DNA of 64,000 nucleotides, from NCBI RefSeq assembly GCF_029689945.1, contig NZ_CP121451.1, positions 2,356,001 to 2,420,000 on the forward strand, in the 5' to 3' direction. This DNA is from Paenibacillus amylolyticus (lineage in GTDB: Bacteria; Bacillota; Bacilli; Paenibacillales; Paenibacillaceae). Of this stretch, positions 9,290-63,868 are shown in pieces. The translations under genes were made by a program, and so were the position numbers. How positions within the stretch are numbered: position 1 is the stretch's first letter; the number at the start of each line of letters is the position of its first letter. The notes under the pieces were generated by a model, which made no database searches, had not been told where the DNA came from, and saw only the letters and a program-made list of their open reading frames with translations.

Positions 9290-9400
9290 GGCGGAATCGA
9301 TTCTGAAGAAGCGGAGCGTTCGCCTTTATCCCCGGATTTTCCCCTTAGGAGGGGAATTCATAAAATCTGGGGATAACAGCGATCATAAGAACGATCCGCC
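9290..9400 (+). repeat. Dispersed structured repeat, copy R1
   Basis: Core GAAGCGGAGCGTTCGCC-TTTATCCCCGG and TCTGGGGATAACAGCGAT are conserved with the other copies. Outer stem here: GGCGGAATCG (9290-9299) pairs with CGATCCGCC (9392-9400), a different sequence from the common GACAGAATAACC stem. The apical loop stem is CCCCTTAGGAGGGG. It lies between the start of the 8975 gene and the end of the GH53 gene. The rest of this intergenic stretch (8976-9449) holds the remnant and hairpin listed separately. Confidence 0.85.
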
Positions 9401-9449
9401 ACCGGAACGCCTACCACGCTGCGCACCATAACATTTCTACCCACCGTAC

Positions 9450-10499
9450 CTAGTCAATAAATCCTTCCATGACAGCCGTTGGCATCATATTGGACTGCCA
9501 AGCGCCTTTGCCGTAACCACCGTTATATCCTGGTGTAGCCTGAGGCTCCCAGTAGAATACACCTTTACCTTTGCCATTCGGCAGATTGCGGATTTGGTTT
9601 TTCATCGCCTGAACAAAACTTTTACCCGCTGCCGCCTGATTATTGTCCATGCCAATTTCGGAGATCATAATCTCTTTACCATAACGGTTGATCATATCCT
9701 TGGCGTTGTTAACCGTATTCGTCACAGCGGTGTTCCAGCCAGAAGCGGATGGATAGAGGGACATGGCGATCATGTCAAAGTTAGCTCCGTTATTGATCAG
9801 ACCACCAATATTCCATACATAGAGGGCGTTATCATCTCCACCGGCCAGATGCACAATGGTTTTGGTACCGCTGCTTAAGGATTTCACTGCGTTATGGCCT
9901 GTGTTCACCAGCCACGCATAGTTTTTCATGTTGGTGGATGCTTTGCCATCTTCCCATAACATGCCGTTGCTTGTTTCATTACCGATCTGCACCCAGTCAG
10001 GGGTAACACCTTTGCTTTGCATCGCCGTCATCACATCACGAGTGTGGTTCCATACCGCATCCATGAGCTGTTGGAACGTGTAATTTTTCCAGGCAGCCGG
10101 TTTGGTTTGTTGACCCGGGTCTGCCCAGGAATCGCTGTAGTGCAGGGTAAGCATTACACTCATGCCAGCATTTTTGGCACGTTGGGCGAGTGTAGCCGCA
10201 CGATCCTTATTCATGTAACCGTTCCCATAATCATTCGAAGGATTAACAAAGACCCGAATGCGAACGGAGTTGATTTGATAGTCATTTTTCAAAATATCAA
10301 TGATGTCGCGCTGAACCCCGTTTTTATCTTTCCATTTGTAGCCTTGGGCTTCCATGCCGGGAACCCAACTGATGTCGGCTCCTTTCGCGAAACTCGGTGC
10401 TGCGCTGGCTTGCTGACCTGCGGGCAACAGGATGGAGGTGAATAACAAAACAAAAGCCAACATGATGGATGTCTTGAAACCCCTTACATTTTTGAACAT
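9450..10499 (-). CDS. Secreted arabinogalactan endo-beta-1,4-galactanase (GH53)
   Basis: A 349-residue extracellular enzyme that cuts beta-1,4-galactan side chains of pectin. Seen: a Sec signal peptide ending around ASAA (residue 33), then a single GH53 (clan GH-A) barrel with GADISWVPGME near the start, the acid/base Glu in QIGNETSNGMLW and the nucleophile Glu in ISEIGMD. No binding module or anchor is present. Start ATG10499 has AGGAGG about 6 nt upstream. It is a stand-alone gene, flanked by terminator-like hairpins; no pectin transporter genes are nearby. Confidence 0.9.
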   Translation of the reverse strand: MFKNVRGFKTSIMLAFVLLFTSILLPAGQQASAAPSFAKGADISWVPGMEAQGYKWKDKNGVQRDIIDILKNDYQINSVRIRVFVNPSNDYGNGYMNKDRAATLAQRAKNAGMSVMLTLHYSDSWADPGQQTKPAAWKNYTFQQLMDAVWNHTRDVMTAMQSKGVTPDWVQIGNETSNGMLWEDGKASTNMKNYAWLVNTGHNAVKSLSSGTKTIVHLAGGDDNALYVWNIGGLINNGANFDMIAMSLYPSASGWNTAVTNTVNNAKDMINRYGKEIMISEIGMDNNQAAAGKSFVQAMKNQIRNLPNGKGKGVFYWEPQATPGYNGGYGKGAWQSNMMPTAVMEGFID

Positions 10500-10625
10500 T
10501 ACAAGATGCCTCCTCGTATTTTTGGTTGAGTTGCATCTTCATTATAGCCATCCTGGTTTACACTGCTAAAGGGTCTATTTCCAATATTTTGGGTGTTTTC
10601 TCAACCTCTCTACAGAAAAAGACAA

Positions 10626-10654
10626 AACAAAAAGCCGTCCGAAGACGGCTTTTC
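10626..10654 (-). terminator. Strong Rho-independent terminator
   Basis: AAAAGCCGTC-TTCG-GACGGCTTTTTG on the minus strand. It closes the short transcript read from the 10.8 kb region and lies about 130 nt upstream of the GH53 start. Confidence 0.85.
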
Positions 10655-10655
10655 T

Positions 10656-10790
10656 ACCCGTGGCGCTTTTTGAAACATTGATCCGTATCCCGCGCCTCCA
10701 CCAGACTCATTTAATTTGAGCTAGTGGATCGGGTAAGGGACACGTTCAACATGACATTAGAAATGTTGACGCACCTCCTTTCCTTGTGGC
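10656..10790 (-). other. Candidate short transcript with one or two mini-ORFs
   Basis: On the minus strand AAAGGAGGTG is followed 7 nt later by an ATT-initiated frame (or ATG at codon 5) of 13-17 codons ending ...STSSN, whose stop overlaps an ATG (TAAATG) opening an 18-codon frame MSLVEARDTDQCFKKRHG. That second stop lies directly before the terminator at 10626-10654. Inverted pairings (CAACAT/ATGTTG; CCACTAG/CTGGTGG) could fold it. It could be a leader peptide, a small protein pair or a regulatory RNA; neither start is certain. The remaining bases between 10500 and 10847 show nothing else. Confidence 0.35.
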
Positions 10791-10847
10791 AAGAGTATAC
10801 AACACCTTGTTTCGGAAAGCTAGTCTTTTTTACGTATTTATGCAAAA

Positions 10848-11075
10848 TTATTTTTCAGTCTGGAACATCGTAATATCTCGTGCATAATGGCTCTTTGTTC
10901 CGTCATTATTTCGGATGCGCACACTGTCTTCACTGATCCGTTCCACAATGCCACAACCGACCTCGCAATAGACACCAGCCGGGTCTTCCTGCCATGCGCT
11001 CACCATACATTGCGATAGTGCAGCCGTGAAAAATTCTATATTTTTCTGTAACGTTCTAGGTTTGTTGGATTTCAT
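10848..11075 (-). CDS. Small conserved-looking protein, unknown function
   Basis: A 75-residue cytosolic protein with three cysteines (one near residue 23 and a YCEVGCG pair in the middle) and basic termini. AAAGGAG sits 6 nt before ATG11075, so it is likely translated. I do not recognise the family; the two close cysteines might bind metal. It is divergent from ppk. Confidence 0.6.
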   Translation of the reverse strand: MKSNKPRTLQKNIEFFTAALSQCMVSAWQEDPAGVYCEVGCGIVERISEDSVRIRNNDGTKSHYARDITMFQTEK

Positions 11076-11323
11076 TATATACTCCTTTAATTCAATATAT
11101 TTGGATGGAGAACAAGCAACCGGACCAAATCACACTGTACTTCACTTTACTCTGTCTATTGACCTTTGTAAAGGGATGGAAAAAGTTGCGGCCATGAGGT
11201 ATCATTTACATAAATTTTACGTAGCGTTTACACTGCGCTGACGCTTGATGTTGATTACGAATAGTACAATTATAGGAGAACTTCTAACGAAGAATAGAAA
11301 TGCAACACATTCGGAGGCCATAC

Positions 11324-13404
11324 ATGCATAGAGACGTCAAAACAGGCAACTACGTTAATCGTGATTTGAGTTGGGTTGAATTTAATCGGCGCGTACTTCA
11401 GGAGGCCCAGGATCCAACAACGCCTCTGCTGGAACGCATGAGATTTCTCGGCATTGTCGCCAGTAATCTGGACGAGTTCGTCAGTGTCAGGGTGGCGGAG
11501 ACCAAAGAGAAGATCAAGGCCGGATTCACGCAAAAAGATTTTACAGGATACACGCCTTCGGGATTGTACCGCAGACTGATCAAACGAACCGGGACCATGG
11601 TCGCCGAACAGTATAAAACATATCGTGAACTCATTCGTTTACTCGCCAAAAAAGGCGTGAACATTCAGGAGTATATTGATCTCAATGTGACACAGCAGCG
11701 TGCAATGGACCAATACTTTCATGAGATTATTTTTCCGGTACTCACACCGATGGCGATTGACCAGAGTCGTCCGTTCCCACTGGTACACAACAAGTCTGTC
11801 TATCTGTCCGTAATGCTTCAGAAGGAAGGGGAGCAGGAGGGTGAGCCGTTTATGGCTATTGTTCAGGTGCCTTCCAATCTGCCGCGAGTCGTGCAGGCTC
11901 CCATTCGGGCGAATAGCAAAAAGAAAACATTCATCCTGATTGAAGACCTCATCAAACATCATATTCATACGCTTTTCAGTGGATACATCTCACTTGCTGC
12001 GCAGGAATTCCGTGTGACCCGCAATGCGGATTTGTTCATTAATGAGGAAGAAGCGGAAGACCTGCTGGAGGCCATTGAAAAAGAATTGCGACGCAGACGC
12101 CGGGGGCTCCTGTACGACTGGAAGTCTGCAAGGATTTTCGTCCGGATGCCTTATTGGAATTGCAGGAAGAATTCGATATCCAGGACCCGGTGTACGAAAT
12201 TGATGGACCACTCGATCTGAGTTTTCTGGCTGGATTCGTGGACAGTCTGGAAGGTTTCTCGAATCTGAAATACAGTCCGGTGAAGCCGGTATATCCACTT
12301 GAATTTTTGCCAAGAGAAAGTCATTTCGAATTACTGCGCAAACGAGATGTACTGGTGCACCACCCCTATGAATCATTTGAACCGGTCACCGATTTTATAT
12401 TGGAGGCTTCGGAAGATCCGAGAGTCCTGGCCATCAAGATGACATTATATCGGGTGAATGGCGACTCACGCCTGATCCCGGCACTTGCACATGCGGCTGA
12501 GAGCGGTAAGCAGGTTACGGTGGTGGTGGAACTGAAAGCCCGGTTTGATGAAGAGCGTAACATTGCCTGGGCCCGGAAGCTGGAGAAGGCGGGCTGCCAC
12601 GTGGTTTATGGTTTGGTTGGACTCAAGACCCACGCCAAGATCATTCTTGTTGTTCGCAGGGAACAGCAGGGGTTGAGACGTTATGTTCATGTAGGAACAG
12701 GCAACTATAATGAGAGTACAGCCAAAGTGTATACGGACGTGGGACTGTTCACCTCCAATCCGATTATTGGGGAAGATGCATCCGAGTTGTTCAATGAGAT
12801 TACCGGATATTCCGGTCCGAAGGCATTGCAGGCGTTCCGCGTAGCCCCAGATGGTATGAAGGATGAACTGTTCGCACTGATTCGTCGAGAAACGGAGCAT
12901 GCGCTGAAAGGCAAACCTTCCCGAATCATTGCCAAGATTAACTCCTTATCCCATCAGGATATGATTGATGAGTTGTATGAGGCTTCTCAAGCGGGCGTGC
13001 AGATCGATCTGATTGTGCGCGGCGTATGCTGTCTGCGTCCGGGGGTAGAGGGGCTCAGTGAGAATATTCGGGTCATTAGCATTGTGGACCGTTTTCTGGA
13101 ACATTCCCGGTTGTTTTATTTTGAAAATAGCGGCAACCCGGATGTATTCATCTCCAGTGCAGACTGGATGACACGTAACTTGAATCGAAGAATTGAACTG
13201 ATGTGTCCCGTGTTCGATCCGGAGCTGAAGAAAATGCTGGTCGATATTCTTAATCTGTCCCTTAATGATAATGTCAAAGCAAGAGAGCTTATGCCTGGTG
13301 GCAATTATGTATTTGTAAAAAATGAAAAGCCCCCGCTGAGAAGTCAGACGGAGGCCATGGGGATTATCCCTTGGAAGCCTGCTGAATGGAGTACGTTAAC
13401 GTAA
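11324..13404 (+). CDS. ppk: Polyphosphate kinase Ppk1 (frameshifted)
   Basis: Reversibly builds polyphosphate from ATP. The repaired protein is 693 residues, normal for Ppk1. One G missing from the run 12102-12106 splits the gene; restoring it turns RRRRRG-LLYDW into RRRRRGSPVRLEVCKDFRPDA. Seen: N-terminal NRDLSWVEFNRRVLQEA, the phosphorylated His region RRYVHVGTGNYNEST and the second catalytic His segment FLEHSRLFYFEN. ATG11324 is chosen because GGAGG lies 6 nt upstream; an ATG at 11300 has no such site. The 3' end overlaps the converging ppx gene by 41 bp. Confidence 0.92.
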
Positions 13405-14892
13405 CTCCCCAGGCTTCCTGCAGATCCTTGACGGCCTCTTCCAGGCCAGCAAGTTCCAGTAACGGCTCGGCTGTACAGGTAAAATGCACCTGCAGCGAGT
13501 CGTTTTCTTTGGTCGCTTCGATCGCAGCGATGCTCTCGGATCGATTCATGGCTTCGGCTACGCGCAGCAGAGAGCCTATACGATGAGCATGTCGCTCATC
13601 CGAGTTTTTTAGAATGTCCCGATGCTTATGCAGCAGTTGGGGCGTTCTTTTTTCGGATGATAATCGGCCGCACTGGCACTAAGGATGGTCTCCCGATGGG
13701 AAAGACCATATATGCTTGCATTCATAATCCAATAGGCCGAGTGCTGCGTATAACGGAAATAGTTAATCTGCTTGCCTGCCATATGCAGCATGGAGGACGC
13801 ATACAGGATGCGGGCATCGGATTGATCAGGAGCAGTACCTTGTAGTGCCGTGTACAGGGTAACCGCATCCTGATGAATCCGTTGCAGACGTTTCTCTGGA
13901 ATAGGCGGACCAAAATGAATAAAGTTGCGGATACTATCCTTCAGCGCGTCCGGAACGACCGGCTGGCCTCCGGCCAAGTAATCACGCAACAACCCGTCTC
14001 GCAGACCCGCACCACTAACCACATAACGATCGCCCTGTATTAAACGGAAGACGGTTCGCAGGATCAGTACGCCGGGCACAATGATGTCTGCACGATCTTT
14101 GGCGAGCCCAGGAACCTTTTTCCGCTGTGCGGAGGTAAGGTGTGGCAAGGAACGAGCGATATTCTCCATCGCTTCCTTGCTGATCTCATAATGATGAGTG
14201 ACCGGCAGCGAGTACTGGGTACGTTTCTGTTCCACTTTGGCGAGTGTACGCATCGTGCCGCCAAGTCCGATGAGTGGCAGGTCAGGGTGCTCACGAATCC
14301 AATCCTGTCCACGGAGAGCTTCGACGACCTCATTACACAGCGCATTAGCATTCGCCTCGGTCCACTGATCTTCACCCCCATAACGGGCATGTGAATTCAC
14401 TGCACCAATGGGAAGGGAAATGCTATGTAACCTTTTCCGATCCCGAAAGACTGTGATTTCCGTACTGCCGCCTCCGATATCTACGACGTAACCGTCTGCC
14501 AGATCAATGGATTGAGTAACACCAAGGAAACCATAATAGGCCTCCCGATCACCGGATACACATTCAATGGTAAGCCCCGTCTCTGTCTCCAGCCATTCCA
14601 TAATTTGCGAGACATTGCTTGCATTACGAATGGCGGCCGTAGCTGCTGCGCGGATCAGTTTGGTCTGATACGCTTCACAGGTTGCCTTGAATTGACGCAA
14701 GATGGTGATGGCTTTATCCAGAGAATGGCGATGGATGGTTCCATCCGCTTCAACAACGCTGCTCAGACGAGCGGCGTATTTGTCTTCATGAATGATGCGA
14801 TAGGCTGCGTCCTGATCCAGTTCATAGATAACCAGACGAATGGAGTTCGAGCCGATATCAATAATTCCTATGGTTTCATTAGTACGTGTCAT
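13364..14892 (-). CDS. ppx: Exopolyphosphatase Ppx/GppA family (frameshifted near the 3' end)
   Basis: Hydrolyses terminal phosphate of polyphosphate (or pppGpp in GppA members). The repaired protein is 509 residues: an ASKHA phosphatase domain with IGIIDIGSNSIRLVIYE at the N-terminus, DIGGGSTEIT and GLGGTMRTLA, then an HD-like C-terminal domain. One base is missing in the GGGG at 13639-13642; repair turns ERPNCC into ERPQLLHKHRDIL and joins the final 60-residue segment. ATG14892 has AAGGAG 6 nt upstream. It converges on and overlaps ppk, so the two are read against each other at their ends. Confidence 0.9.
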
Positions 14893-14918
14893 AAGCATCT
14901 CCTTCTACAGAGGTTCAA

Positions 14919-15173
14919 CTACCCGAATTGAAGAAGGGCAGCCATGGCTTCAGGTGAACCCGGCGGTGTGGCAGAGAAGGGCGTAGTTAACATAACAACA
15001 ATGATAAACACAATGAAACAGGCAAATATAAGACAACTCACGGCAAAGCCGCGATTGCGCTTTTGAATAAACAGTCGAATACCTGTGACAAAGAGAAGTA
15101 CCGTAACGGCTACCAGAACGATCGACATTGCAAAATAGGCTACGCCATAAAGTGATTTGAAAAATGCTTCCAT
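14919..15173 (-). CDS. Two-helix small membrane protein, unknown function
   Basis: An 84-residue protein with two hydrophobic helices (about residues 11-34 and 44-64) joined by a basic loop (QKRNRG), and a Pro/Gly/Ala tail. AAGGAG lies 12 nt before ATG15173. It is immediately upstream of ppx on the same strand (26 bp between stop and the ppx start), so it may be cotranscribed with it. Family not recognised. Confidence 0.65.
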   Translation of the reverse strand: MEAFFKSLYGVAYFAMSIVLVAVTVLLFVTGIRLFIQKRNRGFAVSCLIFACFIVFIIVVMLTTPFSATPPGSPEAMAALLQFG

Positions 15174-15410
15174 TGGTTCTGAACGCTCCTTAGATCCTCA
15201 TATTTAAGCCCTTCCAAGCCATTCCTTAGTAGCATACGACAGATTGACTTGTTTGAAAAGCAAACCGGGCGCTTGTTCCCGTTTCCGCCATCCCCCTTGG
15301 GACAGGTCTCATGGAAAAGGGGCCCTGCCGCGGACAAACATCCAAGAAAGCAAGGTTTCTGTTGAGTATGTATAAGGAAGGACTATTGTTTCAAGGAAGG
15401 AGATCAACCC

Positions 15411-16070
15411 ATGTCGAGACAACTTGCAAGCAAATGGCGGAAGACAGCGGCACTGATGAAATATCCGGTCGCGGCTGTCCATATACCACAGACCAAAGCA
15501 TTCAACTCGGGTAATCTGCTGCAGATGCTCAGTCGTTATGGAATGGTGTATGTCAAACCGATTGTAGGAGGCGGAGGTTACGGTGTTATCCGGGTATCGG
15601 CGAGCGGTGGAGCTTATCGATACACCCATATGAAAACGACACGTTCTTTCGCCAGTTTCAGCCAAATGTATCGTTCCCTGGTGCGTGTGAAGGCTAGACG
15701 CAAGTATTTGATCCAGCAAGGCATTCATTTGGCAACGATTCAAGGGAGACCTGTGGATTACAGAGTCAAAGTCGTCAAAACCGAACGAGGCTGGGTATTC
15801 CGTTCCCTGGTTGGTCGACTCGCTCGTCCAGGATTATGTGTGACGAACCTGAGCAAGGGCGGCACCATGTTATCAGGAAGGCGAGCCCTTGGTTTATCCT
15901 TGCCTCATATATCCGGCCGGCACAAACGCAGGGAGATGCGTTCACTTACACTGACATGCACGCACATTATGGAACGTCAGTTCCCTGGTGTGGGCCAGCT
16001 TGGGTTTGATTATGGACTGGATTATTCAGGAAAGATCTGGATTTTGGAAGTGAATACCAGACCACAATAG
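15411..16070 (+). CDS. YheC/YheD-like ATP-grasp protein (spore coat associated family)
   Basis: A 219-residue protein matching the ATP-grasp part of the YheC/YheD endospore coat-associated family. Seen: a basic start, YVKPIVGGGGYGVIRV (ATP-binding loop), VDYRVKVVKTERGW, and the metal-binding end GQLGFDYGLDYSGKIWILEVNTRPQ. Most relatives continue past the NTRP motif; this one stops there, possibly natural or another base loss. GGAAGGAGA precedes ATG15411. A role in spore coat or wall ligation is by family association only. Confidence 0.7.
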   Translation: MSRQLASKWRKTAALMKYPVAAVHIPQTKAFNSGNLLQMLSRYGMVYVKPIVGGGGYGVIRVSASGGAYRYTHMKTTRSFASFSQMYRSLVRVKARRKYLIQQGIHLATIQGRPVDYRVKVVKTERGWVFRSLVGRLARPGLCVTNLSKGGTMLSGRRALGLSLPHISGRHKRREMRSLTLTCTHIMERQFPGVGQLGFDYGLDYSGKIWILEVNTRPQ

Positions 16071-16250
16071 AAAATGAGTGGGAAAGCTCAAGAAAATCCA
16101 AGAAAAACCGATAATATATAGAAGAAAACGGTATGAAAAACGTTTGAAATTTTACATTACCGGGTAATTTACTCGCAACAAGTCTTGAAACTATGAATTT
16201 ATTCCAAAAAAAATATGCTGATAAACGTTCTGACCGAAGTACAACATTCC

Positions 16251-16350
16251 TGTGCATAAATATTGTCCACACTATACACGTTGATTACTCCACATTTTTT
16301 CCATTTATCAACAAACTATGCACAGGATTTCCACATATGATTGTGGATAA
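16251..16350. promoter_or_regulatory. Cluster of DnaA boxes upstream of sda
   Basis: TGTGGATAA at 16342-16350 is a perfect DnaA box on the minus strand. Close variants lie at 16251-16259 (TGTGCATAA), 16263-16271 (TTGTCCACA), 16305-16313 (TTATCAACA) and 16316-16324 (CTATGCACA). Five sites in 100 bp lead straight into the sda promoter. The rest of the gap from 16071 is AT-rich without other recognisable signals. Confidence 0.75.
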
Positions 16351-16359
16351 CAAGAACGC

Positions 16360-16388
16360 TTGTTCTCTATATGAATCTCTGATATGAT
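16360..16388 (+). promoter_or_regulatory. Probable sda promoter
   Basis: TTGTTC at 16360-16365, 17-nt spacer, TATGAT at 16383-16388, placed just downstream of the DnaA box cluster and 38 nt before the start codon. Confidence 0.55.
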
Positions 16389-16425
16389 AGTTTTGAGGAA
16401 AAAAAAGGAAAGGTTGTGGCGGGAA

Positions 16426-16569
16426 ATGGCTATGTTATCCGATGAGATGTTGTTGGATTCCTACCATAAAGCGATTGAGTTGAATCTCGAACGAGATTTC
16501 ATCGCACTGCTGTTGGCAGAAATCCATAAGCGCAAACTGGGTACCGACGTATCTGCCATTCTTCACTAG
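16426..16569 (+). CDS. sda: Sporulation checkpoint inhibitor Sda
   Basis: A 47-residue helical hairpin that inhibits the sporulation kinase KinA when replication is disturbed. The pattern LSDEMLLDSYHKAIELNLERDFIALL matches Sda closely (LSDELLIESY-KA-ELNL-RDFI). ATG16426 or ATG16432 are both possible; the frame opens earlier at 16384 but those codons are not part of the family. In Bacillus subtilis sda is activated by DnaA, and the DnaA boxes directly upstream indicate the same control here. Confidence 0.9.
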   Translation: MAMLSDEMLLDSYHKAIELNLERDFIALLLAEIHKRKLGTDVSAILH

Positions 16570-16590
16570 AGATCCTCATTGCAGGCAATG

Positions 16591-19902: not shown

Positions 19903-19928
19903 AGACGTTACAAGTTGAACTAAAGATG

Positions 19929-20078
19929 TTTACACATACACTTCAATGACAGAATAACCTTCCAATCGCTGTTATCCCCAGATTTTTTTGATTCCCTTTT
20001 GTTAAAGGGAAAATCCGGTGATAAAGGCGAGCGCTTCGCTTTTTCAGGTTTTTTCTGTCCTTTCCGTTTTTGTGTAAA
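19929..20078 (-). repeat. Dispersed structured repeat, copy R2 (inverted orientation)
   Basis: The complete 150-bp unit bounded by TTTACAC (19929-19935) and GTGTAAA (20072-20078). Outer stem GACAGAATAACC (19948-19959) pairs with GGTTTTTTCTGTC (20047-20059). Core and apical stem (TTCCCTTT/AAAGGGAA) are as in the other copies. It fills the gap between the ndh operon and hemQ, which converge. Confidence 0.88.
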
Positions 20079-20142
20079 TAAATAGTTCAAACTATATAGA
20101 TCTAAATCAAGCTTGAGGTAGTAGAATATTGATAAATAATAA

Positions 20143-23778: not shown

Positions 23779-24708
<930 letters not shown>

Positions 24709-28387: not shown

Positions 28388-28513
28388 AATAGGGTGAAAT
28401 TAAAGAATCACGAGTACAAACTAAAGAAAAGTTGCAGGTGACAAGTTAATGTCAGAAGCCTGATGATATAATTCTATATAAGTTAAACTAATTTTTTACA
28501 CGATAACGGAGAG

Positions 28514-28662
28514 GACAGAAGAAACCTGAAAAAGCGAAGCTAAAAGCTTTCTGCAAGAAAGCTACTTCGGAAGCATAAGCTTCGCCTTTATCACCGGATT
28601 TTCCCTTGGGAAAAGGGAATCAAAAAATCTGGGGATAACAGCGATTGGAAGGTTATTCTGTC
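28514..28662 (+). repeat. Dispersed structured repeat, copy R3 (extended form)
   Basis: Outer stem GACAGAAGAAACC pairs with GGTTATTCTGTC (28651-28662). The inner GCGAAGC hairpin carries an added 35-nt arm (AGCTTTCT/AGAAAGCT and TTCGGAAGCATAAG). A left boundary TTTACAC lies at 28495-28501; no right boundary was found. It ends 28 bp before the kinase start codon and so lies in the kinase leader, between it and the divergent GH85 gene. Confidence 0.85.
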
Positions 28663-28689
28663 ATCACAGCATCGGAGGGAACATACGAA

Positions 28690-41348: not shown

Positions 41349-41410
41349 ACCTTTTTGAAATATTTTTGAGCTATATAAGATGAACTTAAACATGTACACA
41401 GAACGGAGAG

Positions 41411-41521
41411 TGCAGAACCAGATGGAGAAGCGAAGCGTTCGCCTTTATCCCCGGATTTTCACCTTTGGAAAAGGGAATCAAAAAAAACTGGGGATAACGG
41501 CGATCGGAAAATGGTACTGCA
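41411..41521 (+). repeat. Dispersed structured repeat, copy R4
   Basis: Outer stem TGCAGAACCA (41411-41420) pairs with TGGTACTGCA (41512-41521), again a different sequence with pairing kept. Core CGAAGCGTTCGCC-TTTATCCCCGG and CTGGGGATAACGGCGAT. It lies between the GH38 and GH125 genes inside the glycosidase operon, leaving a 255-bp gap filled by the repeat. Confidence 0.88.
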
Positions 41522-41603
41522 ATCGTAGTGTCCCAGTGTACAGTCAATGGGTTTATCTTCTATAGCTACACCATTCAATTTGTTTAAGGAGTTGCACTCA
41601 TCC

Positions 41604-51007: not shown

Positions 51008-51089
51008 GCGTCGAATCCATTTATATAGGACAATATAAAGTATACTATTTATATAAAATGAAACTGGAAATTTACATGTTAACGGAGAG

Positions 51090-51201
51090 AACAGAAATAA
51101 CCTGAAAAAGCGAAGCGTTTCCCTTTATCACCGGATTTTCCCCATTGTAAAAGGGAATTAAAAAAATCTGGGGATAACAGCGATTGGAAGGTTGTTCTGT
51201 T
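51090..51201 (+). repeat. Dispersed structured repeat, copy R5
   Basis: Outer stem AACAGAAATAACC (51090-51102) pairs with GGTTGTTCTGTT (51190-51201), where the end pair A-U replaces the G-C of R2/R7. Inner core as in other copies; terminal boundaries are degenerate (TTTACAT ahead, GTGTGAA after). It lies in the 314-bp gap between trxA and uvrC and ends 72 bp before the uvrC start. Confidence 0.87.
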
Positions 51202-51273
51202 ATCGTAGCGTTTGTGTGAATTATTTGTAGGGTGAGGATTTCAGCTTTTTCGGGAAGGAGGATTCACTGCATT

Positions 51274-55450: not shown

Positions 55451-56791
55451 GTGAAACTGAATGTTCAATGGATGCGATTATCGCCACCCCGTATTCTTGT
55501 CTTAGGGTTTGCTGGCATCATATTGGTAGGCACACTGCTGTTAATGCTTCCGGCATCCAGCCGTAATGGTCACAGTCTTGCATTTATTGATGCGCTCTTT
55601 ACAGCAACTTCCGCTGTTTGTGTCACCGGTTTGGTTGTGGTCGATACAGGGACTCATTTCTCGGTGCTGGGTCAGGTTGTGATTGCGATTCTGATTCAGA
55701 TTGGCGGACTGGGCTTCATGACGATGTCCACATTGGTCGCCATTGCGTTCAAACGGCGGATTTCCCTCAGAGAACGCTTGATTCTACAGGAGGCGATGAA
55801 CCAGAGCACGATGGAGGGCATCGTCCGACTGATTCGTAAAGTGGTGATCTACTCACTCATTATCGAAGGCATATGCGGCACCTTGTTTGCCATTCGCTGG
55901 TCATTTGATATGCCGGTCGGGCAGGCAATTTATTATGGGTATTGGCACGCGATCTCCATGTTCAACAACGCGGGCTTTGATATGTTTGGGGACTTCCGCA
56001 GTCTGACCGGTTATGTGTATGACCCGTTGGTTAATTTTACAGCGATGTTCCTGATTGTGTCTGGCGGTATCGGTTTTGTGGTGTTGTCAGACCTGGTGGA
56101 TTACCGCAAAACGCGGAAGCTGTCCCTGCACTCCAAAGTGGTATTGCTGATGACCGGATTGTTGATTGTGTTCGGTGCACTCGTTATTTTCGTATTTGAA
56201 TTCAGCAATCCCCGGACATTGGGTGGTCTGAACTGGGGTGGCAAGATTCTCGGATCATTCTTCCAGTCCGTTACGCCGAGAACAGCAGGAGCGAATACGG
56301 TAGATATTGCCGGGCTCAGACAGGCAACACAATTCTTTATGATCATCCTGATGTTCATTGGTGCATCACCAGGCTCTACTGGAGGCGGGATCAAAACAAC
56401 GACGTTTATGATTATGGCAGGCGCAGTCATCGCCATGATGCGTGGACGGGAAGATATCGTATTTTTCCGCTATCGGCTTGTACAGGAACGGATTTTTAAG
56501 GCACTTACCATTACATTGTTGGCCCTCTTGTTCATCATAGCCGTAACAATGGCGCTGAGTACCACCGAAGAAGCCAGCTTTATGATGATTTTATTTGAGA
56601 CGACATCGGCCTTTGGCACCGTGGGATTATCGCTGGGACTTACGCTGAAGCTGACCACCATCGGGAAGCTCCTGATCTGTTTTACCATGTTTGCAGGAAG
56701 GCTTGGACCCATCACGTTAGCGTATGCACTTGGGCAGAAAAAGGGTAAAGAGTTATACCGGTATCCGGAAGGCAAAATGATTATTGGATAA
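55451..56791 (+). CDS. Ktr/Trk-type potassium channel subunit, KtrB/KtrD-like
   Basis: A 446-residue inner-membrane protein with the four-fold pore architecture of Ktr/Trk K+ transporters. Seen: ALFTATSAVCVTGLVVVDTG (filter 1), AISMFNNAGFDMFG (filter 2), FFQSVTPRTAGANTVD (filter 3) and FETTSAFGTVGLSLGLT (filter 4), plus GGIGFVVLSDL. GTG55451 is chosen with GAGGTGG about 11 nt upstream; the frame opens at a GTG at 55436. The cytosolic regulatory subunit is the next gene, so together they form a complete uptake system. Confidence 0.9.
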   Translation: MKLNVQWMRLSPPRILVLGFAGIILVGTLLLMLPASSRNGHSLAFIDALFTATSAVCVTGLVVVDTGTHFSVLGQVVIAILIQIGGLGFMTMSTLVAIAFKRRISLRERLILQEAMNQSTMEGIVRLIRKVVIYSLIIEGICGTLFAIRWSFDMPVGQAIYYGYWHAISMFNNAGFDMFGDFRSLTGYVYDPLVNFTAMFLIVSGGIGFVVLSDLVDYRKTRKLSLHSKVVLLMTGLLIVFGALVIFVFEFSNPRTLGGLNWGGKILGSFFQSVTPRTAGANTVDIAGLRQATQFFMIILMFIGASPGSTGGGIKTTTFMIMAGAVIAMMRGREDIVFFRYRLVQERIFKALTITLLALLFIIAVTMALSTTEEASFMMILFETTSAFGTVGLSLGLTLKLTTIGKLLICFTMFAGRLGPITLAYALGQKKGKELYRYPEGKMIIG

Positions 56792-56839
56792 AATGTAGTG
56801 AGTTATGAATTTGATTGGATAAGGGGTTCGTGAAGAACA

Positions 56840-57511
56840 ATGAAAACACAGCAGTTTGCGGTGATTGGACTTGGGCGGTTTGGCTCCAGTCTGGCACAGG
56901 AATTAATGGAACTCGGCTACGAGGTGCTCGGGATCGATAAAAATGAAGAAGTCGTCGAAGACATGAGTGAATTGGTCACCCATGCGGTTGTAGCCGATGC
57001 CACAGATGAGGAAGTGTTGCGCTCTCTGGGGATTCGCAATTTCGATTGTGGGATTGTAGCCATCGGGGATGATATTCAGACGAGCATTCTCACCGCGATT
57101 CTGTTAAAAGAGTTGGGCGTCAAGACGGTCGTGGCCAAGGCCATATCCGTTCTTCACGGACGAGCGCTGGATAAACTGGGGATTGATCGTGTCGTTTATC
57201 CTGAGCGGGATATGGGCATCCGGGTTGCCCACCAATTGGTCACCCCGAACTTGCTGGATTACATTGAACTATCCAACGATTACAGTATTGTCGAGATGAA
57301 GGTTCCCGCCTGTCTGCATAACAAAACCCTTTCAACCCTGAATGCACGTGTACGCTTTGGGTGCAGCATTGTGGCGTTACAGAAGGAAGCTGGGGTTATT
57401 ATTGCTCCGACAGCACTGGACTCGCTTCAGATGGGGGATATCATGGTCATTATTGGTAATAATGCAGATATCGACCGATTTGAAGAAGAGGTTATCAGCC
57501 AGGAGAGCTAA
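56840..57511 (+). CDS. Ktr regulatory RCK subunit, KtrA/KtrC-like
   Basis: A 223-residue cytoplasmic ring-forming protein that gates the potassium channel. Seen: Rossmann motif AVIGLGRFGSSLAQEL (residues 8-23) of the RCK_N domain, binding ATP/ADP or NAD, and a C-terminal RCK_C domain (ALDSLQMGDIMVIIGNNADI) that in relatives binds c-di-AMP. Starts 48 bp after the channel gene, so probably cotranscribed. Confidence 0.9.
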   Translation: MKTQQFAVIGLGRFGSSLAQELMELGYEVLGIDKNEEVVEDMSELVTHAVVADATDEEVLRSLGIRNFDCGIVAIGDDIQTSILTAILLKELGVKTVVAKAISVLHGRALDKLGIDRVVYPERDMGIRVAHQLVTPNLLDYIELSNDYSIVEMKVPACLHNKTLSTLNARVRFGCSIVALQKEAGVIIAPTALDSLQMGDIMVIIGNNADIDRFEEEVISQES

Positions 57512-57571
57512 TCATTATCATGTGGTACAAGAGGAAGCCAGGCGCTGGAGCCCGGCTGATTCAGATCCATG

Positions 57572-58495
57572 CTAAGGCGTCGTAGTCCTCCTTGAGGGCA
57601 ATGGCGCCTTTGCTGTAAAGAGCGCAGCCGTCTCCTTGACCCATTGTCTGGAGGTCTCGCTGAGGTCTTCCTTTTCCCCATAGATCATGCAGGTTGTTCT
57701 TCGGGTCTGCTGTAGTTGTGGCAAATGGACAGCAACCAGATCATTGTCTGCAAGCAATTGTGGACGAAGATATGACTTGGGCAATAGGGCCGCAGCTTTG
57801 GCGGAAGGCAGAAGACGGATGATCGCTTCGAAGGAATCAATCTCCATGCGAATATCCGGCATCACAGCACAGCGCTGGAAGAGGTCATCCGTTAATTTGC
57901 GGTACCAGGTGCCTTTGGAGAATGTGATCATCGGCAGATCCTGCAAATGCTCCATTCCGGCTTCCTTGTCAGACAAAGGGTGTGTAAGCGGCACAACCAG
58001 TTCCAGGTGATCGTCAAAGAGTGGCACACAGTTGAGCCCCACTTCGCTGATGGAGGAGGCGACAATGCCCACATCGGCTTTTTTATCACGCACAAAAGAG
58101 ACAATCTCGTGTGTTTTTCCCGTCAACAGTTTCAGTTCGGCATTTGGATGTTTCTCCATAAAGGCATTGACGAGTGGGGGTAACGTGGTTTGAAGTGTCG
58201 TCAGACTGGCTCCGAGTGTAATGGTGCTCTGTTCTTCATCTTTATACTGGGCGAGCATGGTGAGGAATTTCTGTTGCTGCTGCTTCTGTTCTACTGCGAA
58301 GGTATAGGCGAACTGGCCCACGCTGGTTAACTCCAGCCGTTTGCCACGACGGTGGAACAGGGCAACCCCAAGTTCATCCTCCAATTTGGCAATTTTGCGT
58401 GAGAGTGCGGGTTGGGACAAGTTCAGTAACTTGGATGCACGGTTCAGGCTGGACTGCTCCACAATCGCTGCAAATGCATTTAACTCCTCAAACAT
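57572..58495 (-). CDS. LysR family transcriptional regulator
   Basis: A 307-residue regulator: N-terminal winged helix (FAAIVEQSSLNRASKLLNLSQPALSRKIAKLEDELG) and a two-lobed effector domain (TLGASLTTLQTTLPPLV, FSKGTWYRKL). Its ligand is unknown. ATG58495 has AGAGGT upstream; the frame extends to 58516. It is divergent from sdhCAB, and the CcpC-like box between them suggests it controls sdh, as CcpC controls TCA genes in Bacillus, an inference. It ends 60 bp from the Ktr operon, on the opposite strand. Confidence 0.85.
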   Translation of the reverse strand: MFEELNAFAAIVEQSSLNRASKLLNLSQPALSRKIAKLEDELGVALFHRRGKRLELTSVGQFAYTFAVEQKQQQQKFLTMLAQYKDEEQSTITLGASLTTLQTTLPPLVNAFMEKHPNAELKLLTGKTHEIVSFVRDKKADVGIVASSISEVGLNCVPLFDDHLELVVPLTHPLSDKEAGMEHLQDLPMITFSKGTWYRKLTDDLFQRCAVMPDIRMEIDSFEAIIRLLPSAKAAALLPKSYLRPQLLADNDLVAVHLPQLQQTRRTTCMIYGEKEDLSETSRQWVKETAALFTAKAPLPSRRTTTP

Positions 58496-58597
58496 GAACG
58501 ATGACCTCTTTTCCATGAATGTGATTCTTACCCTTGCTTAATCGTTTTCCATGTTGTATAGCCGGTAATAGCCGATAAACCCAATGTTTCACTGCTT

Positions 58598-58612
58598 ATA
58601 CCTATAGGTTAT
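58598..58612. promoter_or_regulatory. CcpC-like ATAC-N7-TTAT dyad upstream of sdhC
   Basis: ATAC (58598-58601), CTATAGG and TTAT (58609-58612). It differs by one base from the ATAA-N7-TTAT box of CcpC-type LysR regulators, lies between the LysR gene and sdhC, and further ATAA/TTAT half sites follow. The whole 58496-58800 gap otherwise reads as AT-rich promoter DNA. Confidence 0.4.
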
Positions 58613-58800
58613 AACATTTAATAATTATATTGCAATTCCCTTATAAGAAAAAAAGGAGTAACATGAATCGTGACACAAGTTGTTCACACCTGGGGAAAAC
58701 GGAACAATTTGTCGAACCTTTTCATGGAAAAGGATTCGTGTCATGATAAGTAAAATTATTTATGAAAACGTTATATTTAGCGAAAGGGGATCGACATTTT

Positions 58801-59469
58801 ATGAAAGGGTTTTACTCCAGAAAGCTGCACTCCTTGCTTGGCGTCATTCCGCTCAGTTTGTTTTTTGTTGAGCATTTGGTGACGAACTTCTCGGCAGTTG
58901 AAGGCGGCAAAGAGGCTTTTGACGGTGCTGTTGCGTTCTTGAACAGTCTGCCACTGGTTATTGTTTTGGAAACGCTCCTCATCTGGTTACCGTTGTTCTA
59001 TCACGGTGTCTATGGTCTGTATATTGCTTATCAGGCCAAGCCTAACGTGGGCCGTTATGGCAATGAGCGCAACTGGCGTTACACGCTGCAGCGGGTCAGT
59101 GGTGTCATTACGTTTGTATTCGTAATCTGGCATGTATGGGAGACTCGGGTGCAAGTTGCGTTGGGTACAGTCACCCACGAGGAACTTGGCGGTGTCATTC
59201 ATGAGATCGTGATGAACCCGGTAACATTTATTCTATATCTGATCAGTGTAGTTGCGGCATCCTATCACTTTGCCAACGGTCTGTGGTCGTTCCTTGTTAG
59301 CTGGGGGATTACTGTGGGTCCGCGTGCGCAGCGTGTGTCCTCTTATGTATGCATGAGTTTGTTTGGTATTATCTCCATCATGTTTATTGCTTCCTTGTTC
59401 GCTTTCCGGAGCATCGATTTCCAAGCAGTAACTTCGATGGTTGATGTAGTAAAAACAGTTCTAATCTAA
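58801..59469 (+). CDS. sdhC: Succinate dehydrogenase cytochrome b558 subunit SdhC
   Basis: A 222-residue, five-helix membrane anchor of the Gram-positive succinate:menaquinone reductase, carrying two haem b groups. Seen: haem-ligand His in FYSRKLHSLLGVIPLSLFFVEHLVTNF, YHGVYGLYIAYQ, FVIWHVWETR and SYHFANGLWSFLVSWGIT. ATG58801 is chosen over 58762 because GAAAGGGG lies upstream. First gene of sdhCAB, 43 bp before sdhA. Confidence 0.92.
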   Translation: MKGFYSRKLHSLLGVIPLSLFFVEHLVTNFSAVEGGKEAFDGAVAFLNSLPLVIVLETLLIWLPLFYHGVYGLYIAYQAKPNVGRYGNERNWRYTLQRVSGVITFVFVIWHVWETRVQVALGTVTHEELGGVIHEIVMNPVTFILYLISVVAASYHFANGLWSFLVSWGITVGPRAQRVSSYVCMSLFGIISIMFIASLFAFRSIDFQAVTSMVDVVKTVLI

Positions 59470-59512
59470 GCATTTACTGATTAAATGCTGACTTATAAGG
59501 GAGTGAACAGCA

Positions 59513-61252
59513 ATGGCATCAACGAATGTAATTATTGTGGGCGGCGGTCTCGCAGGCTTGATGGCGGCGATCAAATCGGCTGAAGCCGGAGTCCATGTTC
59601 ATTTATTTTCACTGGTTCCTGTTAAACGATCCCACTCTGTATGCGCACAAGGCGGCATTAACGGAGCGGTAAATACCAAGGGTGAGGGCGACTCCCCATG
59701 GGTACACTTTGACGATACGGTATACGGCGGTGACTTCCTTGCGAACCAACCTCCGGTTAAAGCGATGTGTGAAGCCGCACCTGGCATCATTCACCTGATG
59801 GACCGTATGGGCGTCATGTTCAACCGGACACCGGAAGGTTTGCTTGATTTCCGTCGTTTCGGGGAACGAAGCATCACCGTACGGCGTTTGCCGGAGCAAC
59901 AACAGGACAACAACTGCTCTATGCATTAGACGAGCAGGTACGTCGCTGGGAAGCAGCGGGTCTGGTTACGAAATATGAGAACTGGGAGTTCCTGCAGGCC
60001 GTTTTGGATGATGAAGGCGTGTGCCGCGGGATCGTAGCTCAGGATCTGAAAACAATGAAAGTACAGACCTTCCCGGCAGAAGCGGTTATTCTGGCGAGCG
60101 GTGGTCCGGGATCATCTTCGGTAAAACGACCAACTCGGTCATTAACACAGGTACAGCGGCAAGTGCGGTGTATCAGCAAGGTGTAAATTACGCGAACGGC
60201 GAGTTCATTCAGATTCACCCGACAGCCATTCCGGGGATGACAAGCTGCGTCTGATGTCCGAATCTGCACGTGGTGAAGGTGGACGGATCTGGACGTACAA
60301 GGACGGCAAGCCTTGGTACTTCCTCGAAGAAAAATATCCTTCCTACGGAAACCTGGTTCCACGTGATATTGCAACACGTGAGATCTTCAGTGTCTGCGTG
60401 GATATGGGTCTTGGCGTGAACGGCGAGAACATGGTTTATCTCGACTTGTCTCACAAGGATCCGAAGGAACTGGATGTTAAACTGGGCGGTATCATTGAGA
60501 TCTATGAGAAATTCATGGGCGATGATCCGCGTAAAATCCCAATGAAAATCTTCCCGGCAGTCCATTATTCCATGGGCGGCATGTGGGTAGATTACAACCA
60601 AATGACCAACATCCCGGGGCTGTTTGCTGCTGGTGAATGTGAATATCAATACCATGGTGCGAACCGTCTGGGTGCCAACTCCTTGGTATCCGCGATCTAT
60701 GGTGGTATGGTGGCTGGACCAAAAGCGGCTGAATATATCAAAGGACTCAAAAAGTCGTCCGCAGATATCCCTTCTTCCGTATTTGAGAAACACACCAAAC
60801 AACAAAGCGACAAATACGAAAGCATCATGAAAATGCAGGGTACAGAAAATGCCTATGTTATTCATAAAGAGCTTGGAGAGTGGATGACAGCCAACATGAC
60901 GGTTGTACGTTACAACGACAAGCTTGAAGCCACGATTGGCAAGATTAAGGAATTGAAAGAGCGTTATGGCAAAATCAACATGTACGACAGCTCTGGCTGG
61001 AACAATCCGGGTGCAGCGTTCACTCGCCAACTCTGGAACATGATTGAACTGGCAGAAGCGATGACTCTTGGTGCTCTGCTCCGTAACGAAAGCCGAGGCG
61101 CGCATTACAAACCGGAATTCACGGAACGTAATGACGAAGAGTTCCTGAAAACGACCATCGCAACCTGGTCGAAGGAAGGCCCAAAAATCTCGTACGAGCC
61201 AGTAGACGTATCCTTGATCCCACCACGTATCCGGGATTACTCCAAGGATTAA
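59513..61252 (+). CDS. sdhA: Succinate dehydrogenase flavoprotein SdhA (three frameshifts)
   Basis: Covalently flavinylated catalytic subunit, succinate to fumarate, 580 residues after repair. Seen: IIVGGGLAGLMAAIKSAE, the flavinylated His region RSHSVCAQGGINGA, and the catalytic HRGANRLGANSLV-type motif YHGANRLGANSLVSAIYGG. One G is missing in each of 59871-59874, 60108-60110 and 60233-60236; repair gives FGGTKHHRTAFAGATTG, GGPGIIFGKTTNS and PGDDKLRLMSESARGEGGR. Three independent lesions in an essential TCA gene beside intact sdhC and sdhB point to base-call errors. Confidence 0.92.
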
Positions 61253-61313
61253 GGAGTATCACAGGATTCATGCAATGAATAGTTAAACATCTAAACGAGA
61301 GCAGGAGAACTTT

Positions 61314-61550
61314 GGAGAAGCAAAGCTTTTTCAAAGTTACTGCCATCAAAGTGATGGAGTGAAGGTTCTCAGCAAAGGTACTCTGTGTGCACAAAGCAGC
61401 AGAGGAAGCCAAAATACCTGTTCATAAGCAAGCAACTCATTATTGGCAAAGCTTGCATATCTAAAATTACCGCAATCCAGCATGAATGGAGTGCAGTTTC
61501 CAGCAAAGTTACCTTGTGTACACGACGTAGCGGAGGAAGCGGAAATGCCC
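61314..61550 (+). repeat. Imperfect direct repeat between sdhA and sdhB
   Basis: Segment 61314-61418 recurs at 61443-61550 with many substitutions; shared words include CAAAG-TTAC, ATGGAGTG, CAGCAAAG-TAC and GAGGAAGC. The second half runs into the start of repeat R6. It looks like decayed copies of the flank of the structured repeat. Confidence 0.5.
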
Positions 61551-61648
61551 AGAAGAAGCGAAGCGCTCGCCTTTATCACCGGATTTTAACCCTGGAAAGG
61601 GTTGATCAAAAAATCCGGGGATAACAGCGATCAGAGGGGCATTCCGCT
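61538..61648 (+). repeat. Dispersed structured repeat, copy R6
   Basis: Outer stem AGCGGAAATGCCC (61538-61550) pairs with GGGCATTCCGCT (61637-61648), an entirely different sequence from the other copies, pairing kept. Apical stem AACCCT/AGGGTT. Core GAAGCGAAGCGCTCGCC-TTTATCACCGG and TCCGGGGATAACAGCGAT. It occupies the 479-bp gap between sdhA and sdhB. Confidence 0.88.
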
Positions 61649-61731
61649 GACGAAGCGTCTCCCGTGCACCAAACCAAAAACTTTGCGCATCAGCAACACC
61701 AATCATCGTCACCAGAGGAGGGGACAACGAT

Positions 61732-62496
61732 ATGGCGGAACAAGCTACAGCCAACAAAACCGTCAAGTTTATCATCACCCGTCAGGATAGCCCGGAGTCA
61801 TCTTCGTACAACGAAGAATTTGAGCTTCCGTACCGTCCCAACATGAATGTGATCAGCGCCCTGATGGAGATTCAGCGGAACCCGGTTAATACAGATGGCA
61901 AAGCCATTGCTCCTGTGTGCTGGGATTCCAACTGTCTCGAAGAAGTCTGCGGTGCCTGCTCTATGGTCATCAACGGCAAGCCACGTCAAGCATGTGCAGC
62001 CCTGATCGACAAGCTCGAACAGCCTGTTCGTATTGAACCGATGAAGACCTTCCCGGTGGTTCGTGACCTGGTCATCGACCGTAGCCGGATGTTTAGCGCT
62101 CTGAAACGCGTAAAAGCATGGATTCCGATCGATGGTACCTACGACCTCGGTCCAGGTCCACGGATGCCTGAGAAGAAGCGTCAGTGGGCATATGAGCTGT
62201 CCAAATGCATGACTTGTGGTGTATGTCTGGAAGCATGCCCGAACGTCAATGAGAAAACAGACTTTATCGGTCCAGCAGCACTCTCCCAAGTGCGACTGTT
62301 CAATGCTCATCCAACAGGAGAGATGAATGCCGAAGATCGTCTGGAAGCGTTAATGGAAGACGGAGGCATTGAGGGCTGCGGTAACTCACAGAACTGCGTG
62401 CAATCCTGTCCAAAAGGTATTCCACTGACAACCTCCATTGCCGAAATGAACAAACAAACGACCAAGCATATGTTCAAACGCTGGTTGGGTGTATAA
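61732..62496 (+). CDS. sdhB: Succinate dehydrogenase iron-sulfur subunit SdhB
   Basis: A 254-residue electron-transfer subunit with three Fe-S clusters. Seen: 2Fe-2S ligands in CWDSNCLEEVCGACSMVING, and the 4Fe-4S/3Fe-4S ligands in CMTCGVCLEACPN and NCVQSCPKG. GAGGAGGGG lies before ATG61732. It normally follows sdhA closely; here 479 bp separate them. Terminator at 62563 closes the operon. Confidence 0.94.
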   Translation: MAEQATANKTVKFIITRQDSPESSSYNEEFELPYRPNMNVISALMEIQRNPVNTDGKAIAPVCWDSNCLEEVCGACSMVINGKPRQACAALIDKLEQPVRIEPMKTFPVVRDLVIDRSRMFSALKRVKAWIPIDGTYDLGPGPRMPEKKRQWAYELSKCMTCGVCLEACPNVNEKTDFIGPAALSQVRLFNAHPTGEMNAEDRLEALMEDGGIEGCGNSQNCVQSCPKGIPLTTSIAEMNKQTTKHMFKRWLGV

Positions 62497-62562
62497 TCTC
62501 GTCATAGTATGTGCAGAAGTGTAATCTGCAACTTAGAAGAAGTCGTGATCCCGTGCAGCAAC

Positions 62563-62587
62563 AAGCCGGAGATCCCGGCTTTTTTTA
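62563..62587 (+). terminator. Rho-independent terminator of sdhCAB
   Basis: AGCCGG-AGATC-CCGGCT followed by TTTTTTT. Confidence 0.82.
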
Positions 62588-62670
62588 ATGAAGAAGCAGA
62601 GGAACCGGGCTACCCATGCAGAATATGGTATACTAAGGGGATGGATTAAGAGCGTAGAAGGAGGGGAGAT

Positions 62671-63645
62671 ATGGCAGAGACACCGCGTCAGGGCAGCAAT
62701 AACTCGCCGTCCGAGCGCACGCACAAAACACCAGGTGCAGCAGAGTCTGTGTTTCCTGGGGAAGAAAAGGATCATGATCCCTCTCGCCGAAGTTTCTTAT
62801 TGCGCATGATTTTGATGACGGCGGGTGCCAGTTTGCTCACAGGAGGTTATGCCTGGCTGTGGGAACCGCGTCGTTTGGAGATCAAGCAAGTGGAGCTTAA
62901 CCTTCCGAAGTTCCCAACGGCATTCGACGGTTTGCGTGTAGTTCAGTTCAGCGATGCCCACCTTGGTTTCCATACCGGGGTAAAAGAGATGAAGAAGCTG
63001 GCAGCAACGATTGAGGAGCAGCAACCGGACTTGATCTGTTTTACCGGAGATATCGTCGAGAGGCAGGCAGAGCCGATGCGCGAATGTATTCCGGCACTAT
63101 CCTCCATGCAAGCCAGGTTTGGCAAATTTGCTGTTTTGGGGAATCATGATTATCGGGGCGGACAGCAGAATGAAGTAGCAACGATGTTCCGAGAAGCCGG
63201 ATTCACTTTGTTGCGTAATGAACATGTCGTCATTGAATATGGGGGCGAACGCCTGGCCATCGCTGGTCTGGATGATGCACTTACAGGCAGGCCTGATCCT
63301 GCCCAAGCCATCAAGGGACTGGATCAGGATGTGTGGAAATTACTGCTCATGCATGAACCGGATTATGCGGACATTGCGACTCCTTATGGTTTTGGATTGC
63401 AACTTTCTGGTCATAGCCATGGGGGACAGGTACGGTTTCCCTGGATCGGGGCACTGACAACTCCGCGAGGCTCACACAAGTATGTACAGGGATTGTATTA
63501 CACGGATGTCCAGGGGGTATATTACACCACCCAGACACAGATGCCCGTGTATGTGAATCGTGGTTTTGGCATGACCCAACTGCCCATTCGTTTTCTGTGC
63601 AGACCAGAACTCACAGTTTTTGAGCTTAAAGGAACAACCACATAA
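62671..63645 (+). CDS. Membrane-anchored metallophosphoesterase, YkuE-like
   Basis: A 324-residue protein: a charged N-terminus, a possible twin-arginine signal (RRSFLLRM, residues 43-50) with a hydrophobic helix (MTAGASLLTGGYAWL), then a calcineurin-like phosphoesterase domain. Metal ligands are seen in FSDAHLG, GDIVERQ, GNHDY and LSGHSHGGQ, all complete. It likely acts outside the membrane, on phosphoesters of unknown identity. GGAGGGGAG precedes ATG62671. Related proteins in Bacillus (YkuE) bind the cell wall. Confidence 0.85.
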   Translation: MAETPRQGSNNSPSERTHKTPGAAESVFPGEEKDHDPSRRSFLLRMILMTAGASLLTGGYAWLWEPRRLEIKQVELNLPKFPTAFDGLRVVQFSDAHLGFHTGVKEMKKLAATIEEQQPDLICFTGDIVERQAEPMRECIPALSSMQARFGKFAVLGNHDYRGGQQNEVATMFREAGFTLLRNEHVVIEYGGERLAIAGLDDALTGRPDPAQAIKGLDQDVWKLLLMHEPDYADIATPYGFGLQLSGHSHGGQVRFPWIGALTTPRGSHKYVQGLYYTDVQGVYYTTQTQMPVYVNRGFGMTQLPIRFLCRPELTVFELKGTTT

Positions 63646-63680
63646 AAGGAATATGAGATCATATCAGTTCAACTAAACTT

Positions 63681-63868
63681 TTTACACGAGAACGAAGAGG
63701 ACAGAAATAACGTGAAGAAGCGAAGCGTTCGCCTAAAAAGCTTTCTGAAAGAAAGCTACATCGGAAGCATACACTATCTCCGGCTTTTCCCTTTGAAGAA
63801 GGGAATCAAAAAATCTGGGGATAACAGCGATCGGAAGGTTATTCTGTCATCGGAGTGGCAAGTGTAAA
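63681..63868 (+). repeat. Dispersed structured repeat, copy R7 (extended form)
   Basis: Full unit bounded by TTTACAC (63681-63687) and GTGTAAA (63862-63868). Outer stem GACAGAAATAAC (63700-63711) pairs with GTTATTCTGTC (63838-63848). Like R3 it carries the extra 35-nt arm (AGCTTTCT/AGAAAGCT), here placed after the GCGAAGCGTTCGC hairpin. It ends 42 bp before the next gene start. Confidence 0.88.

Follow-up and report, generated by a model that had tools for sequence, protein, structure and literature searches.

Why would a short piece of non-coding DNA recur between the genes of a bacterium, with its helices rewritten from copy to copy and their pairing kept? The question is raised by a 64-kb stretch of the Paenibacillus amylolyticus genome (hereafter the window), in which an earlier note had described seven copies of a dispersed intergenic element whose folded structure would be under selection, either as RNA or as hairpin DNA. 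All seven copies (a to g) are present at the places given there, and they belong to a family with at least 150 copies in the 6.8-Mb host genome. We give about even chances to the reading that the element is a dispersed repeat resembling a miniature inverted-repeat transposable element (MITE), whose transcript would be a structured RNA acting within mRNA, as judged largely by analogy with other bacterial repeats. Between RNA and hairpin DNA as the folded form, RNA is favoured.

Structure of the element and selection on its fold

The core of the element is about 130 nt long. In the covariance model R2 (74 sequences, 42 pairs) it folds into an outer stem, P1, and a three-way junction that carries a C(GNA)G mini-hairpin; the long arm, P3, has a short stem, TCGC/GCGA, below it and is capped by a loose apical stem. 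The sequence of P1 varies by subfamily and distant copies differ even within P3, with pairing preserved, while the sequence of the junction is nearly fixed (CTGAAGAAGCGNAGCG..TCGCCTTT and AACAGCGATCGGAAG). The junction is closed by the pair 31-109, which is G-C in 90 and A-T in 24 of 119 sequences; a kink-turn in the loop between P1 and the junction, judged by eye, was set aside because position 31 pairs with 109.

Changes on both sides of a pair were found for 36 of the 42 pairs of R2, against at most 22 pairs in slid controls. The covariation score was 0.368 compared to 0.154 in shuffled alignments, and none of 500 shuffles reached the real value. When all column pairs were ranked by mutual information (116 sequences, 3 of the 119 rows having been dropped), eight of the top ten were pairs of the model and the other two were shifted P1 pairings; beneath the top ten there are many non-stem column pairs, reflecting the subfamilies. 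The fold is thus under selection, and the covariation of P1 that the earlier note had pointed out is real.

The same note had read the GCGAAGCGTTCGC region as a single hairpin, P2. The five pairs of that hairpin are 68-94% paired in the 74 sequences, and no more than one compensated cell is seen among the listed pair types. The GCGNAGC triloop hairpin and the TCGC/GCGA stem beyond P3, on the other hand, are 90-100% paired in the same sequences, and each of their six pairs has at least one both-side change (for one pair, seen in only one sequence). This supports a three-way junction in place of the P2 hairpin. The sequence of the GCGNAGC mini-hairpin is one we take to be that of an unusually stable DNA triloop hairpin, and this identity possibly hints at a role as single-stranded DNA.

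The types of mismatch within the 42 pairs of the 119 sequences bear on which strand folds. G.T mismatches outnumber A.C ones (204 vs 152), and more so when six badly aligned or G.T-rich pairs are left out (100 vs 36), which moderately supports the sense strand as the folding strand; part of the G.T excess could come from mutation bias on the leading strand. Folded as single sequences, five of the seven window copies gave z values of -2.0 to -5.5, and the values for two antisense strands were -5.4 and -2.7, so that folding energy offers no choice of strand.

Copy number and distribution

The host genome has 52 occurrences of a pattern for the P3 core and none of its reversed counterpart, so the copies are not due to chance. 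The figure of at least 150 copies comes from the covariance model R1, built from 19 copies. Six further copies, absent from the R1 list, were found in a search of 100 sources, mostly the surroundings of listed copies; the true number therefore exceeds 150. One of the 150 (at 6044385) failed the regular expression for the core and is absent from the counts of context and subfamily below, for which n = 149.

Beyond the host, R1 matches all 23 relatives of the same genus that were scanned; among 15 further genomes in the order, 3 match. In a wider sample of the order, R2 finds a match in 148 of 198 genomes and in 26 of 43 genera. In a draw from the whole class, made with stricter filters, 27 of 299 genomes match R2, all of them within the window's own family, and 272 do not. 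Among named genomes, the 80 listed of 120 stretches carrying an exact pattern have 78 Paenibacillus and 2 Saccharibacillus titles. No match to the element was found in a plasmid collection or in a phage collection. Nineteen viral-contig stretches (L486-L504), perhaps prophage or host sequence, do contain a short pattern from the element's core.

A search of the 64-kb window against Rfam 15 gave no match at gathering cut-offs. Below the cut-offs, copy a had a single match (E 2.2) and eight distant loci together had two (E 0.019 and 0.76), both of these lying off the element. No title reporting the family was present among the listed open-licence PMC papers on Paenibacillus or Paenibacillaceae. 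The earlier note had placed the element beside ERIC, BOX and REP repeats without recognising a named family, and had named a covariance test without significant pairs and an explanatory Rfam match as the results that would speak against it. Neither occurred, the covariation being strong, and with mobility seen (below) the description holds. The element apparently represents a large family of small mobile repeats, hitherto undescribed, in Paenibacillus and related bacteria; having no Rfam match, it may be overlooked in the annotation of Paenibacillus genomes.

Terminal repeats, modules and mobility

Among the 149 host copies, 113 are of type 1, 16 of type 2 and 14 of type 3, with 6 unclassed. 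Type 1 copies are bounded by terminal inverted repeats of about 27-30 nt ending in TATA (TATATAAGTTGAACTAA..TTTACAC on the left, GTGTAAA..TTCAATTTATATA on the right), and conservation fades at these ends (91 of the 113 type 1 copies, with both inner motifs). The TTTACAC/GTGTAAA ends noticed earlier in two copies are real and form the inner part of this repeat; two is too few, as far more copies have them. The element is thus short, non-coding and flanked by terminal inverted repeats, as MITEs are. It also carries a variable number of an extra hairpin of about 40 nt, the P2 module: none in 90 copies, one in 56 and two in 3. In the window, the module is carried by the two longer copies, c (28541..28580, plus strand) and g (63735..63774, plus strand). 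Derivatives of the element (L468 at ~640-775, L481 and L482) comprise a P3-less one between short AGC(G) repeats and palindromes, about 41-46 bp long, that consist of terminal repeats alone.

Ten relatives served for comparison with the window; DNA identity is about 90-92% for six of them and about 80-83% for the other four. Copy a (core with P1 GGCGGAATCG/CGATCCGCC, three-way junction and P3 at 9280..9407, plus strand; type 1 terminal repeat not seen) is present in seven of the ten, and its site holds tandem copies in three: three copies in G011 and two each in G022 and G023. A stretch of 30 nt at 9122..9151 on the plus strand, 87% alike, is the probable remnant of the right end of a second copy. 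It precedes the matching stretch of copy a by 271 bp, a spacing that resembles that of the tandem copies in G011 and thus supports this origin. The earlier note had mentioned a remnant and given it no position; this stretch may be the one meant. Tandem arrays of two or three copies are also found in L083 (G009) and L266/L283 (G083), the periods of these and of site a in G011 being about 303, 155 and 270 bp, flank included.

Copy b, of type 1 and on the minus strand (model match 19941..20069; 19909..20098 with both terminal inverted repeats), is present in five relatives, and the number of modules at its site is 0 in the window and G002, 1 in G016 and G008, and 2 in G023 and G022. Copy c (model match 28504..28669, plus strand; 28475..28669 from the left terminal repeat, the right end being truncated) is present in three relatives, with a half copy in G002, and its module is absent at the orthologous site in G023, G016 and G008. 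Its site is empty in G011 and G022, which is the cleaner case of the two empty sites: across its boundaries the filled site reads ATTC, TATATA...TATATA, GTCAGG, while the empty one reads ATTCAAGTCAGG, so that a TA-type target is likely from sequence. The other case is copy g (63667..63883 with terminal repeats, core 63690..63855, plus strand), which is shared only with G016; the site is empty in five close genomes, with a blurred right boundary.

The remaining copies, all on the plus strand, are more widely shared. Nine relatives have copy d (41372..41564 with terminal repeats, core 41401..41528), between GH38 and GH125 glycosidase genes, and nine have copy e (51050..51230 with terminal repeats, core 51080..51208), between a thioredoxin gene and uvrC. 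Copy f (61515..61670 with its own outer stem, core 61528..61655), between sdhA and sdhB, is present in all ten. At this last site, G022 holds a different P3 arm within otherwise matching P1 and flanks, and a like arm occurs in G001, G012 and G003; this looks like a local exchange between copies, possibly through gene conversion.

That the element moves is shown by its empty sites and tandem copies, its terminal inverted repeats, the varying number of 40-nt modules and the swapped arm; the earlier note had proposed empty sites in sister strains as a test of mobility. The filled, empty, arm-swapped and module-variable orthologous sites are ready natural experiments. A search for the Y1_Tnp (RAYT) transposase gave no match in the host genome and was positive in 5 of 14 control genomes. 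Nor was an autonomous parent found by its ends in the host genome: the 88 end-like matches form facing pairs of 112-248 bp and one of 4,685 bp, none at the usual length of an insertion sequence (IS). Read 150 nt inward, 18 of 19 stray ends are derivatives or chance matches by their look (transposase genes in the flanks of these ends lay outside the search). Movement would then be by a transposase supplied in trans, probably into a TA-type target.

Placement between genes and old operon sites

With genes called by simple scripts of our own rather than taken from annotation, no overlap with a gene was seen for any of the 149 host copies, which extends to the genome what had been noted for the window. 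Relative to the element, the neighbouring genes are (+,+) in 97 cases, (-,-) in 23, (-,+), i.e. divergent, in 20 and (+,-), i.e. convergent, in 9. Co-directional gaps therefore hold 120 of the 149 copies, compared to 155 of 324 background gaps (element-free gaps of at least 80 nt in the window region of 11 related genomes, which are not independent). Among the co-directional cases, 97 of 120 are in the sense orientation (binomial p 5e-12), and the next start codon is commonly found about 50-85 nt past P1, immediately beyond the terminal repeat. Assuming an origin at dnaA (1.06 Mb) and a terminus opposite to it, 113 of the 149 copies read with the leading strand.

In this assembly, sdhA (window 59513-61252) is broken across reading frames, and the dnaA of the host genome appears as two partial matches that overlap (C1:1060586-1061070). 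In both cases an indel error of the assembly seems to be the cause.

Some of the operon sites are old. Besides the sdhA-sdhB site, this is seen in genus g33, which belongs to another family of the order and in which 13 genomes were searched (30 loci over all 24 genomes, one per set being examined with Pfam and the others joined to it by blastp, so that the counts are lower bounds). At least nine of these genomes have a copy before leuA, with ilvC recognised upstream in eight, and at least eight have one between the genes for citrate synthase (citZ) and isocitrate dehydrogenase (icd). Each of these genomes has 1-6 model matches. A site between thiolase and acyl-CoA dehydrogenase genes is occupied in three genomes. 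Folded separately, each of the two g33 sets again gives the element's overall design, with six compensated pairs in each. At the sdhA-sdhB site and at the two g33 sites, sequence identity within the element exceeds that of the spacer to its left (0.808 vs 0.653 at sdhA-sdhB, 0.881 vs 0.783 and 0.871 vs 0.779 in g33) and falls short of that of the coding ends. Some copies are kept in operons as folded spacers.

A shared ancestral site at ilvC-leuA or citZ-icd was not found in 30 other genomes, and these two sites look lineage-specific. In 3 of 30 icd loci outside g33 (G004, G006 and G059) the element lies downstream of icd.

Proposed role and alternative explanations

Judging by likeness to BOX, bcr and Correia elements, the most likely use of the element is in the stability or processing of mRNA. 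Its RNA would be transcribed within an operon or leader, and the folded core would be bound or cut by an RNA-acting protein; this would alter the stability or processing of the flanking mRNA and so set the ratio of upstream to downstream cistron. A more far-reaching version, which we put forward tentatively, is that of a structured RNA class travelling as a MITE and repeatedly fixed as an intercistronic control device in many operons throughout much of the order, sdh, ilv-leu and citZ-icd among them, with a core acted on by one cellular factor or by its own catalysis. A folded repeat so widespread and of such high copy number, with compensatory evolution in place within core metabolic operons, would allow a direct test of whether dispersed bacterial repeats are merely tolerated or recruited as mRNA elements.

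Several observations weigh against a role in mRNA. Leading-strand gene pairs have 88 sense and 16 antisense copies, whereas lagging-strand ones have 9 and 7 (Fisher p 0.014), and since the split differs, both genes and replication bear on orientation. Pairing is kept as well in 17 copies antisense to both neighbours as in 72 sense ones (0.944 vs 0.924 for P1, 0.965 vs 0.962 for P3; 10 of 119 rows, 8 unmatched and 2 short, were left out), and no decay of antisense copies was seen. Such pairing would be unexpected of a structure maintained for its role in the mRNA of a neighbouring gene; it speaks against function at every site, and would be explained by recent insertion or by selection for mobility. 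To the right of copy f, identity is higher in the spacer than in the element itself (0.864 vs 0.808). Outside g33, an upstream element was found in none of 30 leuA-like loci (29 genomes; some are paralogues of 45-48% identity) and in none of 30 icd loci. Finally, among the bcr1-3 repeats only bcr3 is reported to correlate with mRNA decay rate in B. cereus (PMC3446304).

A serious rival is a purely selfish repeat with a fold that serves movement only, as single-stranded or hairpin DNA, the sense bias then being due to replication-linked insertion and the removal of harmful antisense insertions. We regard it as possible, with clearly less than even chances. The undecayed antisense copies, the leading-strand orientation, the terminal inverted repeats, empty sites and tandem copies are all in its favour, as are the deletion derivatives, some of them ends only. 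It accounts poorly for compensated changes made in place at operon sites across 8-9 g33 genomes with so few matches each, and for an element better conserved than its left spacer, and the host genome has no Y1 transposase.

It is rather unlikely that the copies are small cis-acting RNAs with an activity of their own, such as a self-cleaving ribozyme or the binding site of a global regulator, spread as plug-in operon controllers. The nearly fixed junction among freely varying stems and the fixed places in metabolic operons would fit such an RNA, but no Rfam ribozyme or riboswitch family matches the window, copy a or the eight distant loci. A family of transcription terminators or attenuators is very improbable: P3 is a strong hairpin and lies ahead of start codons, but the sense strands inspected by eye have no U-run after either P3 or P1, and the element is kept at sdhA/sdhB, ilvC/leuA and citZ/icd, where full termination would be harmful. 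An origin as REP-type palindromes moved by a RAYT/Y1 transposase, which the short, intergenic, folded and strand-biased nature of the element might suggest, is unsupported and the least credible of all, as the host genome has no such transposase and terminal inverted repeats of about 27-30 bp with TA-rich ends are unlike REP.

Comparison with known repeats

The ERIC and REP/BIME sequences of enterobacteria are intergenic folded repeats able to alter mRNA stability or downstream expression, as described in PMC3049150. The Paenibacillus fold is larger and branched, and its host has no Y1 transposase. Correia elements (NEMIS) of Neisseria are short and have terminal inverted repeats, like the element described here, and they have a TA target, which is likely for it as well; it differs by its internal three-way junction and its unrelated host. 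Cutting by RNase III is known for Correia transcripts, according to PMC3049150.

In layout, the element resembles the BOX elements of Streptococcus pneumoniae, which that source describes as modular and present in many copies, with a middle module that is absent or repeated and a predicted fold if transcribed; they are co-transcribed with operons and their ends have been likened to IS ends (PMC3049150). The likeness is one of modular dispersed layout and variable middle module. The Paenibacillus element is different in its three-way junction, in showing covariation in every helix and in its old, in-place sites across a genus, and there is no Rfam link between the two.

In the Bacillus cereus group, bcr1-3 are MITE-like and often located in untranslated regions and operon spacers, while bcr10 and bcr18 have conserved RNA structure, according to PMC3446304. 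By description, the Paenibacillus family differs from these in its host group and in combining, within one family, high-copy mobility and structural covariation.

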